DNA of 64,000 nucleotides from Nostoc foliaceum FACHB-393 (GTDB lineage Bacteria > Cyanobacteriota > Cyanobacteriia > Cyanobacteriales > Nostocaceae), in NCBI RefSeq assembly GCF_014698505.1, contig NZ_JACJTD010000029.1, positions 1 through 64,000 on the forward strand, read 5' to 3'. The notes under the pieces were generated by a model. It had not been told where the DNA came from. It saw nothing but the letters and a program-made list of their open reading frames with translations, and did no database searches. Each line of letters begins with the position of its first letter. Positions within the stretch are counted from its first letter, which is position 1. This document shows positions 17,015-38,859 of this stretch, one piece after another. Both the position numbers and the translations under genes were made by a program.

Positions 17015-17163
17015 ATCGGACAACTGTTCGACCTTGCAGCCTACCAAGCTATCCGACTCGGTTTTATATTCGGAAGTCGTCATCAACCTCACTGGATTAG
17101 GCCTGGACTCTTTTTTGGTACGCCCGATGAATTCCCATTCACCAGTTCTGACACAAAAGAGTA

Positions 17164-17288
17164 CTGCCACGAACCAACACAACCCGAAAACCCACGTTGT
17201 TGTTACGATTGTCACGCGCGTTATAGTTGCGATACGCCGAGCGGCAATTCCTGGGATTGTTGTTCCACGAACCACCACGCAGCAGCCG
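17164..17288 (-). repeat. DGR template repeat (TR)
   Basis: This 125-bp block is the template copy of the variable repeat at 19231-19355. Read on the minus strand it is dense in AAC/AAT codons (encoding [12 protein letters not shown] and [12 protein letters not shown]). Compared with VR it differs at 15 sites, each of them A in TR on the minus strand; the remaining 110 bases, including every C and G, are identical. The first mismatch outside the block is at 17163/19230, where identity ends. It lies 220 bp downstream of the reverse transcriptase stop. It is expected to be part of a non-coding TR RNA that is copied with adenine-specific errors. Confidence 0.95.
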
Positions 17289-17508: not shown

Positions 17509-18549
17509 CTAAGTAATAAATATTTGCTGGCGTAGTTGCCATGTATCACCATACTTTAAGTGGGCAACCCAACTCTGCATTGATTGGGATATTTTTTCAT
17601 ATTCAATTTTTCCTTGATCGTATTCCCAAAGCATTTTTCGTAATCTTTTTCTTGCCAGACGCAGATTATCACTGCGTACCCGAATCCGGTCTGGTAAAAT
17701 GCGAAATCCAACAAAATTAGCTCCGTGTTTTGTTTCAAACAATTGGCTTTTTATTGGATGAATTTTAACTCTTAAACCAGCAAGATATTCCTCTATTCTG
17801 ATTCTGGCGTTTTGCAAAAATACTTTGTCATCTGAAAATAAGGCAAAATCGTCTACATAACGAATATATTGAGATGCTTTTATTTGTTCTTTAACAAAAT
17901 GGTCAAAGCTATTTAGATATATATTTGCAAAAAATTGGCTGGTTAGATTGCCAATTGGTATACCATGTCTTCTTTCGAGAGGTGTGAGTAAATCATCTCC
18001 AGTAAAATAATTAAGTACTAGTTCTTGATGATTACTGCTATCAATAATGATATTAATTAACCAGAGTGTGTTAGGACATTTAATTTTATGATATATCTGT
18101 GATTTCAATATTTCATGGTCGATACTAGGAAAATATTTACGAATATCAGCTTGCAGAACATAACGGCTGGAACGAGCAAATTTAGTAAAACGATGTAAAG
18201 CGCGATGAGAGCCAAATCCAACACGATTGGCGTAGGAATCGCTGATAAATGTGCGTTCAAATATGGGAACAATGATGTTACAGAGAGCATGATGTACAAC
18301 TCTATCACGATAAGGAGCGGCTGAAATTATTCGCGGTTTGGGTTCAAAAATTTGAAATGTGGTGTAGTTTCCAGGAGAGTATGTTTTTAACTGTAATTCT
18401 TCTTGCAATTGAAATAATTCTTGCTCTAGATTGTAGTTAAACTCTAAAACATTTTCGCGAAAACGTTTACCCCGTTGTGCTTGCTGGGCGGCTGATAGTA
18501 AATTTCCAAATGCTATAATTTCATTCCAGAGATTCCCGTATTTTTTCAT
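17509..18549 (-). CDS. Reverse transcriptase of a diversity-generating retroelement
   Basis: The 346-residue protein counts from ATG 18549 ([12 protein letters not shown], the usual DGR-RT start). The frame extends 13 codons further, without a clear ribosome site. RT motifs in order: [20 protein letters not shown] (70-89), [11 protein letters not shown] with Asp135, [17 protein letters not shown] (196-212), YVDD (231-234) and FVGFRI. IGNLTSQ in place of the QG...SP seen in most retroelements is characteristic of the DGR clade. There is no maturase or endonuclease domain. It makes cDNA from the TR RNA with errors opposite adenines. All catalytic aspartates are present. The gene lies between an avd-like pseudogene and the TR. 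Confidence 0.95.
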
Positions 18550-18639
18550 CAATTTAACCCAGGTTCGCCCCTGGCATTGTAGCTGCACTTTCTAACAAGT
18601 TGTTTGCAAAGTGTTTCGCTGTGACTTTAGGAACTTTTA

Positions 18640-19223: not shown

Positions 19224-20822
19224 CTAAGTCCTGCCACGAACCAACACAACCCGAAAACCCACGAAGTTGATACGAGAGCCACGCGCGTCATAGCGGCGAC
19301 ACGCCGAGCGGCAATTCCTGGGAGAGCTGCCCCACGAACCACCACGCAGCAGCCGATTTTGATTATCAACTAACCAAGCGCTTCCGTCTTTTGGCGCTCC
19401 TTTATAATTTTCGTGCCACTCATCCTGACACCATTCCCATATATTACCATGCATATCAAATAAACCAAAGGGGTTAGCAGGAAATTTCCCCACATCTGTT
19501 GTTTGCTGACGATATTCACCCTTTGGGGCAGAACCATAAGTATAATTACCGTCGTAATTCGCTAAATCCGTTGTAATCGTTTCGCCAAAATAAAACGGTG
19601 TAGTCGTTCCCGCACGACAAGCATATTCCCATTCTGCCTCACTGGGTAAGCGATAGGTTTTCTCAGTCTTTTTAGATAGCCTAGCGCAAAACTCAATTGC
19701 ATCATCCCAAGAAACCTGTTCAACAGGTCGATTAGCACCTTTAAAATTGGTTGGTTCGGGATTTAAATCAATATTAACCTTGGGTAAATCAGCAACGGCT
19801 TTCCATTGGCTCTGAGTTACCGTAAATTTCCCCATAAAAAAGGGTTGAATGGTGACAGAGTGCTGTGGACTTTCATCGCCACTTCTTTCTGGCTCACTCT
19901 CTGGCGAACCCATGATAAATTTACCACCCGGAATTGCAACCATTTCCAAAACTACGCCATTACCCAAGTCTTCTGTAGCAAACTCGGTTTGTCGTTTTTG
20001 ATACTCTATTTCTTGTTCTTTTTTTAAGCGAACTACATCCACATCTTTAAGCAGATAATATTTCTGCAATGTCTCTAATTCAGCTTCAGTTTTTTCACCC
20101 AATGGATATCCCTGTTCATCTACAACCCTTGTCAAGTATTGCTTGTATTTATCTAGATTTTTCTTATATATTCCGTAAGGCTCTAATGCTTTTTCTCGAG
20201 ATGCAATGTCTTCTTTATCTGTTAATTTTAACTTTTCTTGTAAATCTTCTAATATATAAGATTCCACAGAAGAAATCTCGCCATCAGACGCAAATTCCTC
20301 AGCCTTTTGAAGATACTCAGCTATAGCGGCTTCCTTCCTTACCCGCTGTTGTTCACGTTCCTTAATTAGTTGTTCAGCCGCAAACTTAATTCCCTGAGCT
20401 ACATTCGTGAATGCATCATCTTGATTACTCCAAGACTTAATAGGTTGAGCATTTTTGGGCAGAGCTTGTAGTTTAGCAAATGGTGCATCTTGCCAAAAAA
20501 CGTTTCGCAGAATAATTGGAATGACACAAGCCTCCCCATTTGCGTGGCGTTCTATTGCTTTGGTAACTTCAACATCCCAGCAGTATTTAGAAAATATAAA
20601 GTCTGAACTGACTAGTAATAAAATGATATCGGCTGTATTTAAATTTTCATTAATCTGCTGATCCCATTCTTTTCCAGGTGGTATTTTGCGATCGTGCCAA
20701 GTTGAAGTTATACCTTGGCGTTCCAACATCGTCAGGTGTTTAGCCAGTTCATCCTTTAGGGGTTCGTCGTTGTGAGAATAGGAACAAAACACCTTGAGTG
20801 GTTCCAACGAAACATCTGCCAT
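19224..20822 (-). CDS. DGR target: TIR domain + FGE-sulfatase (C-type-lectin-like) protein
   Basis: The 532-residue protein has a TIR domain at residues 8-130 (VFCSYSHNDE; SSDFIFSKYCWDVEVTKA, with Glu85 the likely NADase glutamate). A charged helical linker (145-290) follows, containing two DGEIS/GYPL-type repeats. The C-terminal formylglycine-generating-enzyme-like domain (295-530) carries VAIPGGKFIMGSPESE, YRLPSEAEWEYACRAG and LFDMHGNIWEWCQDEWH. The FGE fold is a C-type-lectin variant and a common scaffold for DGR variation. Here its last 42 codons are the VR. Likely role: a variable ligand sensor coupled to a TIR effector or scaffold (inference). Cytoplasmic; no signal peptide seen. Confidence 0.93.
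   Translation of the reverse strand: MADVSLEPLKVFCSYSHNDEPLKDELAKHLTMLERQGITSTWHDRKIPPGKEWDQQINENLNTADIILLLVSSDFIFSKYCWDVEVTKAIERHANGEACVIPIILRNVFWQDAPFAKLQALPKNAQPIKSWSNQDDAFTNVAQGIKFAAEQLIKEREQQRVRKEAAIAEYLQKAEEFASDGEISSVESYILEDLQEKLKLTDKEDIASREKALEPYGIYKKNLDKYKQYLTRVVDEQGYPLGEKTEAELETLQKYYLLKDVDVVRLKKEQEIEYQKRQTEFATEDLGNGVVLEMVAIPGGKFIMGSPESEPERSGDESPQHSVTIQPFFMGKFTVTQSQWKAVADLPKVNIDLNPEPTNFKGANRPVEQVSWDDAIEFCARLSKKTEKTYRLPSEAEWEYACRAGTTTPFYFGETITTDLANYDGNYTYGSAPKGEYRQQTTDVGKFPANPFGLFDMHGNIWEWCQDEWHENYKGAPKDGSAWLVDNQNRLLRGGSWGSSPRNCRSACRRYDARGSRINFVGFRVVLVRGRT
19231..19355 (-). repeat. DGR variable repeat (VR), inside the target gene
   Basis: This 125-bp block covers codons about 490-531 of the TIR-FGE target. 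Its final 33 bases (19231-19263 on the plus strand) are identical to TR and act as the probable initiation-of-mutagenic-homing segment. The 15 substitutions lie between 19264 and 19332. They alter ten residues: template N-N-N becomes G-S-S; Y to C; N to R; N to D; D to G; N to S; N to I; N to F. The stop codon is just outside, at 19224-19226. Confidence 0.95.
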
Positions 20823-24204: not shown

Positions 24205-25344
24205 TTAAGGATTATTATTACCAAGATATTTGGCTTTTAATTGTTCTAATTCTTCATCTATTTTATTTGTACTAGAAGGCTGAGATGTGGGATTTGGTGG
24301 CTGTATTTTATTTGGTTGAGGTTTGCTGCTACCCAAAAACTGGGTTTTCATTTCCTCTAATTCTTTCTCAAGTTGACTCGGAGATTTCGATACAAAAGCG
24401 GCTGGAGATTTGAGTGGTGATTGAGGGATAGGTTTTGGTGCAATAGCTGGTGTGGCTGCTACTTGCGACTGGTGATTTAAATCGTTGAGAACTTCATCTA
24501 CTGTTTGATAACGCCGAATTGGAATACTTTCTAGCATCTTGTTGAGAATGCGACTCAACTGATTACTGATGGGAGTTTGCAAGTATTGCTGCCAAATCCA
24601 AGTATCGTTATTAGTATCATAAGAATCGAAAGGCGATCGCACTGTTAATAAATTAACACAAGTAGCCCCCAAACTGTAAATATCGCTGGCAAAGACAGCC
24701 CTACCTCTCATTTGTTCAGGGGCAACGTATTCTGGACTACCAATACTTGTACCAGTTTGATTTAAGGCAGCGCCAGTGGCAGATTTAGCAGCACCAAAAT
24801 CTACTAATACTAGTTTGCGATCGCTTTCGCGCAAAATAATATTTTCTGGCTTAATATCGCGGTGAATTACGTGTCTGGCATGACAAAATTGCAAAACTGA
24901 CAATAAATCATTTAATAGTTGCTGGATTTGTATTTCATTGAAAGCACCTCTATGCGCCAATTCCTGAGCTAAGTTTTTCCCGTCGATAAATTCTTGTACA
25001 AGATACTGCCGATCTTCTTGAGTAAAATATGCGAGTAGTTCGGGAATTTGAGGATGTTTACCCAATTCATCTAACTGCACCGCTTCTTGGTTAAATAACT
25101 CTACGGCTTTTGCAAGAGTGTTAGTGCCTTGAGATTGGGGATAAAATTGCTTAATTACGCAGCGTGGTTTTGAGGGCTTATCCTCATCCACAGCTAAGAA
25201 GGTTTTGCCAAAACCACCTTGTCCAATTGGTTTAATAGCACGGTAACGTTCTTTGAGGAGTAACTTAGAACCGCAAGCCTGGCAAAACTTGACATGATCA
25301 GGATTTTCAGGCTTGGGACAATGGGGATTAAGGCAGTAGCTCAT
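24205..25344 (-). CDS. Serine/threonine protein kinase with N-terminal zinc ribbon
   Basis: The 379-residue protein begins with a four-cysteine zinc ribbon (CLNPHC ... FCQACG, residues 4-25). A Hanks-type kinase domain (about 34-300) follows: glycine loop GQGGFGKTF, lysine in CVIKQF, catalytic HRDIKPEN, DFG in VLVDFGAAK and SPEYVAPEQMRGRA. The C-terminal 80 residues are Pro/Ser-rich with two similar helices (LEKELEEMKTQFLGSSK and DEELEQLKAKYLGNN). No transmembrane segment is seen. This layout is common among the many Nostoc PknB-like kinases. Target unknown. Confidence 0.92.
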   Translation of the reverse strand: MSYCLNPHCPKPENPDHVKFCQACGSKLLLKERYRAIKPIGQGGFGKTFLAVDEDKPSKPRCVIKQFYPQSQGTNTLAKAVELFNQEAVQLDELGKHPQIPELLAYFTQEDRQYLVQEFIDGKNLAQELAHRGAFNEIQIQQLLNDLLSVLQFCHARHVIHRDIKPENIILRESDRKLVLVDFGAAKSATGAALNQTGTSIGSPEYVAPEQMRGRAVFASDIYSLGATCVNLLTVRSPFDSYDTNNDTWIWQQYLQTPISNQLSRILNKMLESIPIRRYQTVDEVLNDLNHQSQVAATPAIAPKPIPQSPLKSPAAFVSKSPSQLEKELEEMKTQFLGSSKPQPNKIQPPNPTSQPSSTNKIDEELEQLKAKYLGNNNP

Positions 25345-32961: not shown

Positions 32962-34473
32962 ATGCGAGTTCAAATAACTGTAGTTGCGATCGCAGTAATG
33001 TTAGTGGGCGGGAAAAATCCAGAGGCCCTCGCAGACTCGCAATTTTCTACTCAGGATGGGTTTAGTAGTATTGCGACACCGGAAGCTACGATCCATATAG
33101 AGGGGGAGTATGCCAAATATGGTAATTATATAGGAGCGACTTCAGGAGATAGCCAGACGCTTGTATTTTCCCAAAAAGTTGTCAAAGACATCCAGATTCG
33201 TTTTATTAATGACAAAGATGAGTTGCTCGATGACAAAGGTCAGCCCATCAAAGGGCGTACTCAGACAGATTTTATCATTGGTCTGCTGAGACTCAAACCT
33301 GGTCAGGTATTCCGTGAAGATTTACTTCAAGCAGACTTGCAACGATTGAGAAGATTAGAGTCATTTAATCAAGTAAATGTTGAGCGAGAAGAAGATGCCT
33401 CCAGTGTTAATATCATCTATGAAATCAAAGAACGTGCCTTCCCTTCTCTAATTTTAGGAGGCGGAAATAACGATGATGTTGGACTATACGGTCGGGTGGG
33501 TTACAAAGATGCAAATATCAGCGGTCTTAACGATGAATTAGATACAACTGTGCAGTTCAGCAGTGAAGATGTCCAGTTTAATGGTCAATTCATTAGTCGT
33601 TATCGTCCTGGAGAACCAAACCGCTTAGGCTATAGCATTAGAGGTTTTCGTAGTCGAAATATATCGGGAACCTTCAACGAAGATATCAGATTGTCTAACG
33701 GCAACAAAGTGCGGGAGGGAAGGTTTGGCGGTTCTGTGGGACTCTTACAATCTTTCGATGATTGGGATACAACTGTGGCTCTCAACTATACCCGGATTAG
33801 CCTACGCGATCAAGAATATAACGTTGCACAGGTAGATAGATTAGGGAGTCCCCTATCTGTCAGCGGTACTGGTATTGATGACCTATTTACAGTATCATTT
33901 GCTGTATCCAGAGATCAACGCGATCGCCGAGATAATCCGACTCAAGGATCAATCTTCACCCTCAGCACAGAACAAGCGATTCCCATTGGACTGGGCAATA
34001 TTTCTAGCAATCGCCTACAGGGAGACTATATTCAGTATTTACCAGTTAGTTGGATAGGTAATGGTAAACCGACCGACAATCCAGAAATGTTGGCAATTAA
34101 TTTACAAATTGGCACCACAATTGGAGACTTTCCACCAGCGGATGCCTTTAATATTGGTGGACTAGATTCTGTCAGAGGTTATGGTTATGGTAAAGTTGCC
34201 AGTGGTCGCAGTTATGGTTTAGCTTCCGTGGAATATCGTTTTCCAATTTTCCAGTCAATCGGAGGAGTTATCTTTACTGACTTCGCCTCAGATTTCGGGT
34301 CTAGCGAAACCGTACTAGGAGAACCAGGAGTACTGCGAGACAAACCTGGAAGTGGCTTTGGTTACGGCTTAGGATTGCGAGTCAAGTCATCCTTTGGGCT
34401 GATTCGAGGTGACTTAGGAATTAGCGACCAAGGAGAAGTTAGATTTGAAGTTACTACAGGTCAGCGATTTTAA
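32962..34473 (+). CDS. Short Omp85 (BamA/TamA-type) outer-membrane protein
   Basis: The 503-residue protein has a signal peptide (residues 1-25, ending EALADS) and one POTRA-like domain (about 70-150, with LLRLKPGQVFREDLLQADLQ and LRRLESFNQVNV). A 16-strand barrel (about 155-503) follows, with the L6 motif DSVRGYGYGK and SYGLASVEYRFPIF. It ends in Phe, as outer-membrane barrels do. Cyanobacterial Omp85 proteins normally have three POTRA domains, so this is a reduced member. It probably works in insertion or secretion at the outer membrane. Confidence 0.88.
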   Translation: MRVQITVVAIAVMLVGGKNPEALADSQFSTQDGFSSIATPEATIHIEGEYAKYGNYIGATSGDSQTLVFSQKVVKDIQIRFINDKDELLDDKGQPIKGRTQTDFIIGLLRLKPGQVFREDLLQADLQRLRRLESFNQVNVEREEDASSVNIIYEIKERAFPSLILGGGNNDDVGLYGRVGYKDANISGLNDELDTTVQFSSEDVQFNGQFISRYRPGEPNRLGYSIRGFRSRNISGTFNEDIRLSNGNKVREGRFGGSVGLLQSFDDWDTTVALNYTRISLRDQEYNVAQVDRLGSPLSVSGTGIDDLFTVSFAVSRDQRDRRDNPTQGSIFTLSTEQAIPIGLGNISSNRLQGDYIQYLPVSWIGNGKPTDNPEMLAINLQIGTTIGDFPPADAFNIGGLDSVRGYGYGKVASGRSYGLASVEYRFPIFQSIGGVIFTDFASDFGSSETVLGEPGVLRDKPGSGFGYGLGLRVKSSFGLIRGDLGISDQGEVRFEVTTGQRF

Positions 34474-34869
34474 CTTTTTCTAAATAAATACACTTCGCTT
34501 CAAACTTAGATTAATTGCTTCTGGAAGTAGATGCTTCCAAGATAAGAATGAAGCGATCGCCCATTTTGGTACTATTGAGCAAGTTGCATCGGGCGTTGTC
34601 ATTCTCAACCTAAACAATGCGCGGAAGGGTAGGTGTACAAATTTCACAGCGCCAAAAAAGTGCTTCTATCCCAACTCCAGTAAGGCTTTTAAACCATTAT
34701 CTGCCGAATCCTCATCCGCGCAACCTTTGAAATGCTTATCAATATACAATTTCAGCCTTTAAACTTTCCTAATGCTCTTTCCAAACGAATTCTCTAATGC
34801 TATGATTGCCCTTGAATCGCGCAACCGCACCTTGAAAACTAAATATAGCTTGGCTTTCCGGCCCCCGCC
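34474..34869 (+). promoter_or_regulatory. CRISPR leader region
   Basis: The 396 bp between the Omp85 gene and the first CRISPR repeat are non-coding. The final stretch, ACCGCACCTTGAAAACTAAA followed by TATAGCTTGGC, resembles cyanobacterial leader ends and would promote transcription rightward into the array. Repeat orientation (GATTGAAAC at the right end of each repeat) agrees. No cas gene lies on either side. A HIP1 site lies near 34555. Confidence 0.6.
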
Positions 34870-36218
34870 ATTGCAATTCATTAAAATCCCTATTAGGGAT
34901 TGAAACAGCAATTTCATTACTAATCACATCGCTCAAAATTACATTGCAATTCATTAAAATCCCTATTAGGGATTGAAACAGTTTGGCTCTGGAAAGTCTC
35001 TCTATCAATTAGAGCTTATTGCAATTCATTAAAATCCCTATTAGGGATTGAAACACCAATTTCATTACTAATCACATCGCTCAAAACTACAAATTGCAAT
35101 TCATTAAAATCCCTATTAGGGATTGAAACACCTACCCCACTGCCACAATCATGAGTGGCAACTTATTGCAATTCATTAAAATCCCTATTAGGGATTGAAA
35201 CACTTCACTACCTACGGGAGAAGAAGCGACTGTAATAAATTGCAATTCATTAAAATCCCTATTAGGGATTGAAATGCAAAATTAGCTCTGGATGCTTAAA
35301 TTGTTAATTGCAATTCATTAAAATCCCTATTAGGGATTGAAACTTCAACTCTGGCTTTTCATCTTTATAATTATTCAATTGCAATTCATTAAAATCCCTA
35401 TTAGGGATTGAAACAGCATCGATGCAGAGCAATCCCTCCCAAGTTCCACCGGATTGCAATTCATTAAAATCCCTATTAGGGATTGAAACGTACTATTCTC
35501 GATGCTGCGGGTGCTCTTGAGAAAGAGGATTGCAATTCATTAAAATCCCTATTAGGGATTGAAACAAATTATGCTTATTGCTGAGATGGGGGCGGGTAAA
35601 ATTGCAATTCATTAAAATCCCTATTAGGGATTGAAACGAAAAGTTCAAAGCACTCTAAATATACTGATTGAAGAATTGCAATTCATTAAAATCCCTATTA
35701 GGGATTGAAACAGTTTCCCGCTCAAAGCTTGAGGAAGAAATACGGATTGCAATTCATTAAAATCCCTATTAGGGATTGAAACACAAAGCCCAAAGGATAA
35801 AGTAGGTACCGAGGATGATTGCAATTCATTAAAATCCCTATTAGGGATTGAAACGTAGGGGAATACTCACACCGAAATCTAATCGCCACATTGCAATTCA
35901 TTAAAATCCCTATTAGGGATTGAAACGGGTTGCAGTGCAAGAGCTAAGGCTTTATTGGTGGATTGCAATTCATTAAAATCCCTATTAGGGATTGAAACAT
36001 CACTTTTAATTCCCCTGGCATTGATAGTCAAAGATTGCAATTCATTAAAATCCCTATTAGGGATTGAAACAAAACCCTGAAAGCGTCATCTTGATTTTGA
36101 ATCAATTGCAATTCATTAAAATCCCTATTAGGGATTGAAACGGGAGATTTTGATAATTTAGAATACGCTTGGTGGCTGCAAATTGCAATTCATTAAAATC
36201 CCTATTAGGGATTGAAAC
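34870..36218 (+). CRISPR. CRISPR array, 19 repeats of 37 bp, 18 spacers
   Basis: Repeats begin ATTGCAATTCATTAAAA and end CTATTAGGGATTGAAAC, with an internal palindrome AATCCC/GGGATT. First repeat 34870-34906, last 36182-36218. Spacers are 31-40 bp, mostly 34-38. All repeats read identically except number 6 (35239-35275), whose last base is T instead of C. Spacer 1 (34907-34942) and spacer 3 (35055-35092) are nearly identical. The last repeat is intact, so decay at the distal end is not evident. No cas genes lie in the window, so the array must use Cas proteins from elsewhere, or be idle. Confidence 0.99.
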
Positions 36219-36795: not shown

Positions 36796-37884
36796 TTAAG
36801 CCAAAGGCAGAAAAAACCGAAACGTACTGCCAACTCCTAACTCGCTTTCTACTTGAATCTGACCGCCTTGTAGTTCAATTAAACGACGGGAAATAGTTAA
36901 GCCAACACCCGTGCCTCCCGAATGGCGATCGCGCGATTGGTCGGCTCGCCAGAAGCGTTCAAACACATGAGGCAAATTTTCTGGAGCGATACCAATGCCT
37001 GTATCTATAACCGCAATCCAGAGTTGAGATGCTTCAGTCCCAGCACGAACGGTAATTAAACCTTCATTAGTGTAACGCACTGCATTACCTAGTAAATTAA
37101 CCAATACCTGTTCTGTGCGGTCAATATCTGCCAATACAGGAGGCAGCACAGATGGACATTGTAAGAGCAGAACTGGCCCATCTTCCAACAATTGGTCGGT
37201 GAATTTCTCCACTAATGACTCTAACAACGGACGCAGATTTACCTGTTGTATATTAATTGGTAGATAACCAGCTTCTGCCTTAGACAGTTCTTGTAAATCG
37301 TTTACCAAGCGCTCTAACCGCCTAGTTTCTTTAGCTAAACGCCGATAGATTTCAGGAGACGCTTCAATTTCCCCATCAGCCAGTTCTTCCAGGTAACCGC
37401 GCACCACTGTTAACGGTGTTCGTAGTTCATGGGTCATATCTCCAATCACTTCTCGCCGCCGTGCTTCAACCCCTTCTAAACTGGCTGCCATCCGATTGAA
37501 ACTAGCACTCAGTCCACTGAGTTCTGGAATGTCAGACACAGGTAATCGTGCATCCATCTGACCAGCAGCAAATTTTTGGGTGATTTGTTCCATCTCGGTC
37601 AACCGCTGCATAATCCGTCTGGACACCCAGTAACTCAATCCTCCAGCTGCGGTGGTGCCGGCTAAGACTGACCAAATAGTGCTTCGTTGCCAAGCAAGTT
37701 CAAATCCTGTAACTAATTCAGTACGGATATTGATTAAATCGAACCCTCGATTTTCTAATCGTTCCAAATGCAAGACAAACAAGCGGGGAGAAGAGATTTT
37801 GCTGATGCTCACCAGACTAGCTACCCCCACTATCATCACCACTAAGTGGGAGAAAAATAGGCGTGTTCTCAGCCCCATCTTCAT
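36796..37884 (-). CDS. Sensor histidine kinase
   Basis: The 362-residue membrane kinase has a first helix (about 8-28), a short extracytoplasmic loop of about 40 residues and a second helix (about 69-86). Then come HAMP (88-142), a HisKA domain with His152 in MTHELRTPLTVVRGYL, and HATPase_c with NAVRYTNEG, DTGIGIAPENLPHVFERFWR and GGTGVGLTISRRL. The small sensor loop gives no clue to the signal. It follows its response regulator by 5 bp in one operon. Confidence 0.94.
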   Translation of the reverse strand: MKMGLRTRLFFSHLVVMIVGVASLVSISKISSPRLFVLHLERLENRGFDLINIRTELVTGFELAWQRSTIWSVLAGTTAAGGLSYWVSRRIMQRLTEMEQITQKFAAGQMDARLPVSDIPELSGLSASFNRMAASLEGVEARRREVIGDMTHELRTPLTVVRGYLEELADGEIEASPEIYRRLAKETRRLERLVNDLQELSKAEAGYLPINIQQVNLRPLLESLVEKFTDQLLEDGPVLLLQCPSVLPPVLADIDRTEQVLVNLLGNAVRYTNEGLITVRAGTEASQLWIAVIDTGIGIAPENLPHVFERFWRADQSRDRHSGGTGVGLTISRRLIELQGGQIQVESELGVGSTFRFFLPLA

Positions 37885-37889
37885 AACAT

Positions 37890-38600
37890 TTACGCTACCA
37901 GAGGATCTTCAAATTTATAGCCCACCCCAACAACAGTTTTAATAAAAGTAGGATTTGCCGCATCAGGCTCAATCTTTTTTCGCAATCTAGCTACATGAGT
38001 ATCCACCACTCGTTCATCGCCAAAAAAGTTATCTCCCCAAAGTTTATCAATTAGTTGAGTGCGGTTCCAAACTCTACCAGGATTGCTGACAAAGGTGGTT
38101 AGTAAGTTAAATTCTAGGGTAGTTAAGTCCAAAATTTCCGGTTGTTGAGAATTCAACTGACGACTGGCAGTTCGCTGGTCTACATCGACAATAAAGTGTT
38201 GGGTACGATTGATTTGATGTTGTCCTCCTTGGCGGAGACTACGCCGCAATAGTGCCCTCACCCTAGCTACCAACTCTCTGGGGCTAAAGGGTTTAACCAT
38301 ATAATCATCAGCACCAGTAGACAAGCCAATAACGCGATCGATTTCCTCACCCTTAGCCGTGAGCATTAAAATGTAAGGATCTTTTACACCTGGTTTTTGG
38401 CGAATTCTAGCACAAACTTCCAACCCATCCAAATCAGGAATCATTAAATCTAGAATGATTAAATCAGGTGGTTGCTCCTGAAACATCCGTAAAGCATTCA
38501 TACCATCGCGGCTAATGCGACAAAAAAATCCTTCTTTTTCTAAAGAGAGTTTGATTAAATGAGCAATTTCTGGTTCATCTTCAACTATTAAAATATCCAT
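37890..38600 (-). CDS. OmpR-family response regulator
   Basis: The 236-residue protein has a receiver domain (1-120): acidic pocket VEDEP, phospho-acceptor Asp51 in IILDLMIPDLDG, and Lys in YMVKPFSPREL. A C-terminal winged helix (about 140-232) follows, with LTTLEFNLLTTFVSNPGRVW and VVDTHVARLRKKIE. ATG 38600 (MDILIVEDEP) is the family start; the frame extends five codons upstream. First gene of the operon with the histidine kinase; the target genes are not known. Confidence 0.94.
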   Translation of the reverse strand: MDILIVEDEPEIAHLIKLSLEKEGFFCRISRDGMNALRMFQEQPPDLIILDLMIPDLDGLEVCARIRQKPGVKDPYILMLTAKGEEIDRVIGLSTGADDYMVKPFSPRELVARVRALLRRSLRQGGQHQINRTQHFIVDVDQRTASRQLNSQQPEILDLTTLEFNLLTTFVSNPGRVWNRTQLIDKLWGDNFFGDERVVDTHVARLRKKIEPDAANPTFIKTVVGVGYKFEDPLVA

Positions 38601-38859
38601 TTCAATTAATAACAAGACTTGGAAAAGGCTTGGGGCAAAATTCCCTTGTTAAACATAGGTAAACTTGCGCCATAGTATTGGCTACTTTAAGCTCATCCCA
38701 ACTCTAAAAGGGGATGGGATTTCACTTTGACTGATGACAGTTGACGGTTAACAATCATCAGTCATCTATGGATGGGGATTCAAACCCCACCCAACCTGAT
38801 AAATCTTCTACAGACTTGCAATAACTCAGTAGAGATTTCGATAGATTTGAAATAAAGTT

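Follow-up and report, generated by a model that had tools for sequence, protein, structure and literature searches.

How does a CRISPR array come to hold almost the same spacer twice, on either side of an unrelated one? The question is raised by the only array in a stretch of 64,000 nucleotides from Nostoc foliaceum FACHB-393, analysed here as a whole and referred to as the window. The array occupies positions 34870..36218 of the forward strand, as do all of its elements given below, and consists of 19 repeats of 37 nt and 18 spacers of 31–40 nt. The repeat reads ATTGCAATTCATTAAAATCCCTATTAGGGATTGAAAC, and 18 of the 19 copies are identical; the sole variant, repeat 6 (35239..35275), ends in T rather than C. 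This repeat is followed directly on its 3' side by the shortest spacer (31 nt; the two together span 35239-35306), and the combination is perhaps the trace of a small deletion or of an imprecise integration. The strand of the array could be assigned because a conserved leader precedes repeat 1. This leader, of about 254 bp (34616..34869, forward strand), has been kept together with the first repeat across genomes of the genus, with 88-92% match in at least 19 loci of 19 other genus genomes (L018-L036). The query was window:34474-34943, of which positions 143-433 formed the matching part, and weaker matches down to 80% were among those listed. A genome often has several copies of the leader, whose conservation is strong for non-coding DNA. 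The genes on either side are ordinary, with an Omp85/POTRA protein (32962-34473) before the leader and a histidine kinase (36796-37884) followed by a response regulator (37890-38615) downstream of the array.

The two spacers in question are spacer 1 (34907..34942, 36 nt) and spacer 3 (35055..35092, 38 nt), the latter being the older member of the pair by its position. They align without a gap from their first base (offset 0) with 34/36 identities, differing by G/C at position 2 and T/C at position 33, and spacer 3 extends 2 nt further at its far end, by two extra A. A first-pass annotation of this DNA had described the pair at these coordinates, letter for letter, and had placed it at the leader-proximal end of the array around an unrelated spacer 2 (34980..35017, 38 nt). 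The description was exact; the conserved leader confirms the placement, and a comparison of all spacers in the array bears out that spacer 2 resembles neither neighbour. The same comparison rules out chance similarity of spacers 1 and 3, as none of the remaining 152 spacer pairs exceeds 19 matches on either strand. Spacers 1-3 are enclosed by four identical repeats. No stop codon interrupts forward frame 1, forward frame 2 or reverse frame 1 in spacer 1 or spacer 3, and the substitutions between these two create none, a pattern that would be compatible with homologous coding sequence.

Which machinery could have built such an array? The annotation had called it cas-less, which is correct locally and incorrect for the genome. 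In the window, a scan of 40 of the 61 ORFs of at least 100 aa against PADLOC found no credible cas gene, the other 21 ORFs being of 101-167 aa. Elsewhere in the genome, Cas1 matches lie on contigs C46, C118 (two) and C176, with none on the window's own contig (C100), and the array is consequently not cas-less at the genome level. C46 encodes a complete type I-D set (Cas1, Cas2, Cas4d, Cas6d, Cas5d, Cas7d, Cas10d and Cas3d), and next to its operon the repeat of the window recurs twice with one base changed, as found with 36 of the 37 bases as query; a second I-D effector set is encoded on C118. Given a full I-D set beside a nearly identical repeat, the window array is likely served in trans by these type I-D proteins. 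A 2023 review describes type I-D spacers as mostly 35 nt long and varying by 5–6 nt, with Cas4-Cas1 placing the PAM end, and gives GTN as the reported PAM (PMC10212523). The window spacers, at 31-40 nt, show a comparable spread of several nucleotides around roughly 35 nt, which is also the mode among the 1380 spacers of the genus comparison described below. The array next to the C46 cas genes (L051 10634-10740) has two repeats only and starts about 42 nt past the cas2 ORF, and C90 bears a single repeat (L054 10067-10103); the large arrays with this type of repeat are thus found apart from the cas genes. Among the matches listed for the window leader, none is on C46.

One further window gene was considered as a cas candidate and rejected. 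The reverse transcriptase at 17509-18588 (minus strand) is hit by RT-type models, among them one for RT-Cas1 in its RT half, and looks like the enzyme of a diversity-generating retroelement, to which the whole region (17160-17288; 17509-18588, minus strand; 19227-19355; 19224-20822, minus strand) bears a resemblance. Besides the reverse transcriptase, this putative element comprises a template-like repeat of 129 bp, of which a variable copy lies in the 3' end of a target gene, whose product is a TIR/ThsB-like plus sulfatase-modifying-type protein. Template and variable copy agree at 113/129 positions and, counted by eye, 15/16 differences fall at an A of the minus-strand template. At 24205-25344 (minus strand), a serine/threonine kinase with a 4-Cys prefix domain strongly matches the PADLOC models for PD-T4-6; kinases of this kind are frequent in cyanobacteria.

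The sources of the spacers were sought, as the annotation had proposed, among phage, plasmid and Nostoc sequences, and the search yielded one for spacer 18 and none for spacers 1-3. Spacer 18 (36142..36181), the oldest of the array, has the single accepted protospacer, on the Nostoc sp. C052 plasmid pC052_G (NZ_CP040279.1), in a peroxiredoxin-like gene with homologous sites in genomes of the genus. GTT stands directly 5' of the protospacer at 13/13 sites outside arrays in 11 other genomes of the genus, and in the plasmid record as well. This agrees with the GTN motif of type I-D, and it counts as one piece of evidence, from one gene family, because all the sites are in one conserved gene. For the remaining 17 spacers, no accepted protospacer was found in the collections searched. 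An exact 26-mer of spacers 1/3 occurs 0 times in IMG/VR and in genome_contigs, and an exact 20-mer 0 times in genome_contigs. Their 30-base core, with up to 3 mismatches, was found in the array alone when the own genome and the family were searched (217 genomes, own included), and the pair is thus absent from the 216 other family genomes at that threshold; spacer 2 had no match in the 52 other genus genomes searched. Shorter queries returned scattered hits in IMG/VR: degenerate amino-acid patterns of spacers 1/3 hit 1 contig and 3 contigs, and 17-, 16- and 17-mers hit 8, 2 and 1 contigs. The viral loci so reached were rejected as a source, the best ungapped alignments (27/36 at L041, 23/36 at L153) reflecting chance or weak coding similarity. 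With blastn, spacer 3 gave nothing acceptable (best E 2 in phages, 1 in plasmids), and the array as a whole returned mainly other CRISPR arrays or weak pieces, in addition to the spacer 18 protospacer.

The ends of the two spacers offer a test. To apply it we assembled the arrays of the own genome and of the genus (81 arrays, 1380 spacers), a set that is not a random sample because the arrays were collected mainly through similarity to the leader. Eighteen rows of similar spacers emerged, and 16 were aligned in detail: two rows of a duplication in one array (L128), spacers 1/3 and 13 other pairs. The other two rows were a pair on opposite strands (L112/L131) and a partial overlap of 16 nt (L102/L110). 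In the 13 other pairs the far end differs in every case, by 1-10 nt, and the first base is common in 10/13, with offsets of 3, -5 and -8 in the other three; the number of independent cases is below 13, since some spacers belong to more than one pair (the L069/L093 trio accounts for three pairs). In that trio, spacers 2 and 3 of L093 (36 and 33 nt) are neighbours in one array with an identical core, and a further array in that genome holds this core once more (L069, 35 nt). Another pair within one genome (L063/L097) measures 35 vs 41 nt. Spacer 10 of the window (35566..35600) has a partner in another genus genome (L121) with 32/35 identities, the same first base and 2 nt more in length, and its three substitutions are synonymous in the frame that reads IMLIAEMGAGK. 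A different form is seen in L128 (locus start 657), in which spacers 27-28 equal spacers 30-31 with both ends identical; it is the only same-array duplication found in the 81 arrays, and it agrees with the annotation's assumption that duplication yields exact copies. No further same-array pair that is near-identical with substitutions was found in these 81 arrays.

Spacers 1 and 3, with a common PAM-side end, different far ends (offset 0; 36 vs 38 nt) and two substitutions, resemble the pairs with a fixed start and a variable far end, which argues for independent, PAM-anchored capture. We thus consider it highly probable, on the evidence of sequence comparison, that each was captured independently, from a different variant of one invader lineage. 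In two separate events the cell would have taken up one PAM-anchored protospacer, each time from another variant of a single mobile-element lineage, with adaptation probably provided in trans by the genome's type I-D Cas4-Cas1-Cas2, if type I-D proteins indeed built the array. The older event would have given spacer 3 and the newer one spacer 1, as judged by position only. Both captures would start at the same PAM-side base and be trimmed differently at the far end, to 38 and 36 nt, and the two substitutions would be differences between the two invaders. Re-capture is nevertheless something we infer, because the search found no protospacer for either spacer; for the same reason the two source variants are not directly seen, neither being present in the collections searched. 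The far-end difference, moreover, sits in a run of A (AAATTGC vs ATTGC), so that replication slippage could have removed two bases. This possibility, together with the missing source element, limits our confidence in re-capture. Also against this explanation are the three genus pairs with unlike first bases and, on C46, the two-repeat array and the lack of a listed leader match.

The annotation had left two origins open, independent capture or duplication followed by mutation. The genus pairs favour the first, and the second, though it keeps a place, is in our judgement unlikely. It would hold that misaligned replication doubled a block of repeats and spacers, whose copies then acquired two substitutions and a 2-nt slip, for example after a unit of two spacers was doubled and one repeat-spacer unit lost, or through a misplaced integration that copied repeat-spacer-repeat around spacer 2. 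A single integration of the latter kind gives exactly the observed A-B-A order, the length difference lies in the A run, blocks do duplicate in arrays of this genus, as L128 demonstrates, and such duplication has been described as widely reported in CRISPR arrays (PMC8047081). Three independent changes would nevertheless be needed within 36 nt, yet the four surrounding repeats are identical, and the sole duplication found is exact at both ends. A duplicated block would be expected to have both ends identical and usually to be adjacent to its copy; here we find two substitutions, a 2-nt length change and one unrelated spacer in between. Spacers 1/3 differ at 2/36 positions, as against 1/703 repeat nucleotides in the array (Fisher p = 0.007; p = 0.0004 with the length change taken as a third event), and repeats across the genus set differ at 46/51060 nt, a contrast that is weakened if, as may be, recombination or selection keeps repeats uniform.

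Far less probable is an artefact of short-read assembly, with spacers from two arrays or two strains merged or put in the wrong order. The assembly is in 177 contigs and CRISPR arrays are hard to assemble, but the two spacers differ at three places, so that collapse of one sequence cannot have created the pair, both are found nowhere else in the genome, and completeness (100) and contamination (1.23) also speak against it. Least credible of all is that the captures came from paralogous sites of one invader, such as a repeated gene family. The two forward frames and one reverse frame open in both spacers would suit it, as they would suit paralogues and alleles alike; without the source element, such sites are inseparable from two-variant capture.

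If spacers 1 and 3 are indeed successive captures, did the first fail? The seed of a type I crRNA comprises its first 8–10 nt except position 6 (PMC10212523), and the two spacers differ at position 2, within that range. One may speculate that, through this difference, the second variant escaped spacer 3 and so prompted the update. Spacer 1 would then be a natural "booster": a change of the invader at the second seed base defeated spacer 3, and the mutant site was captured again, possibly by priming. We regard this reading as tentative and rather doubtful; the 2023 review states that data on priming by type I-D are lacking (PMC10212523). If it were true, the pair would be a fossil, datable record of one cycle of escape and update in a type I-D array.

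The same collection of arrays holds a second, partial kind of spacer similarity. Among 1299 pairs of neighbouring spacers, 10 have a common prefix of 9-12 nt; a common prefix of 8-32 nt occurs in 0/13333 same-array pairs that are not neighbours, and a common suffix between neighbours is never longer than 6 nt. When spacer order was shuffled within arrays 2000 times, at most 4 such pairs arose (mean 0.68). The leader-side spacer is mostly overlong: the prefix is common in 7/14 cases in which this spacer is at least 43 nt long, vs 3/1285 with shorter ones, and the leader-side spacer minus its prefix measures 32-35 nt in 8/10 and 20 and 28 nt in the remaining two. Two pairs (spacers 21/22 and 23/24) belong to an array of the own genome (L053 9706-11722, contig C123), and the others to L070, L074, L078, L081, L088, L090 and L100 (two pairs). 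It looks as if the target-site duplication had run on into the older spacer for about one helical turn, leaving chimeric spacers; prefix sharing of this kind would be expected if the second-site attack fell 9-12 nt within the old spacer. A 10-nt prefix common to spacer 2 and to spacer 25 of the C123 array was set aside as chance, with 3 such cases among 936878 cross-array pairs. Prefix overshoot does not explain spacers 1/3, because these match over their whole length. The prefix-sharing neighbours suggest that the step that sets repeat length errs measurably in nature, and our literature search, which covered few of the subscription journals, returned no report of prefix overshoot in natural arrays.

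What is the relevance of the pair beyond this locus? Near-identical spacers appear sortable by their ends alone, re-captures keeping the PAM-side base and varying the far end, duplications keeping both. Applied to natural arrays, such sorting would offer a way of counting repeated encounters with one invader lineage.

The events described here have counterparts in known systems. The prefix overshoot recalls type II-A repeat mutants of Streptococcus thermophilus, for which partial spacer duplication of 8 nt, not seen in the wild type, is described (PMC6895254). The product is the same, the start of the old spacer being copied ahead of the new one; there the overshoot is 8 nt and the repeat altered, whereas here it is 9-12 nt, and the arrays are natural ones of another system type whose repeats are normal. 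Adaptation by Cas4-Cas1-Cas2 of type I-D, as reviewed (PMC10212523), shares with the window array the variable spacers of about 35 nt and the 5'-side GTN PAM; the review draws on work in Synechocystis and quotes leaders of 202–220 bp for cyanobacterial I-D arrays, in contrast to the conserved stretch of about 254 bp before repeat 1 here. Block duplication by misalignment (PMC8047081) likewise places repeated spacers within one array, but the duplicated blocks described there are exact, which spacers 1 and 3, unequal in both bases and length, are not. Re-capture of this sort is already known, and the window array preserves what is most likely an instance of it in good condition. In the known double captures, too, two arrays or events record one site, as told by overlapping or differing ends; those pairs, however, lie between genomes or between array types, whereas spacers 1 and 3 stand in one array, two positions apart, and differ by two substitutions.
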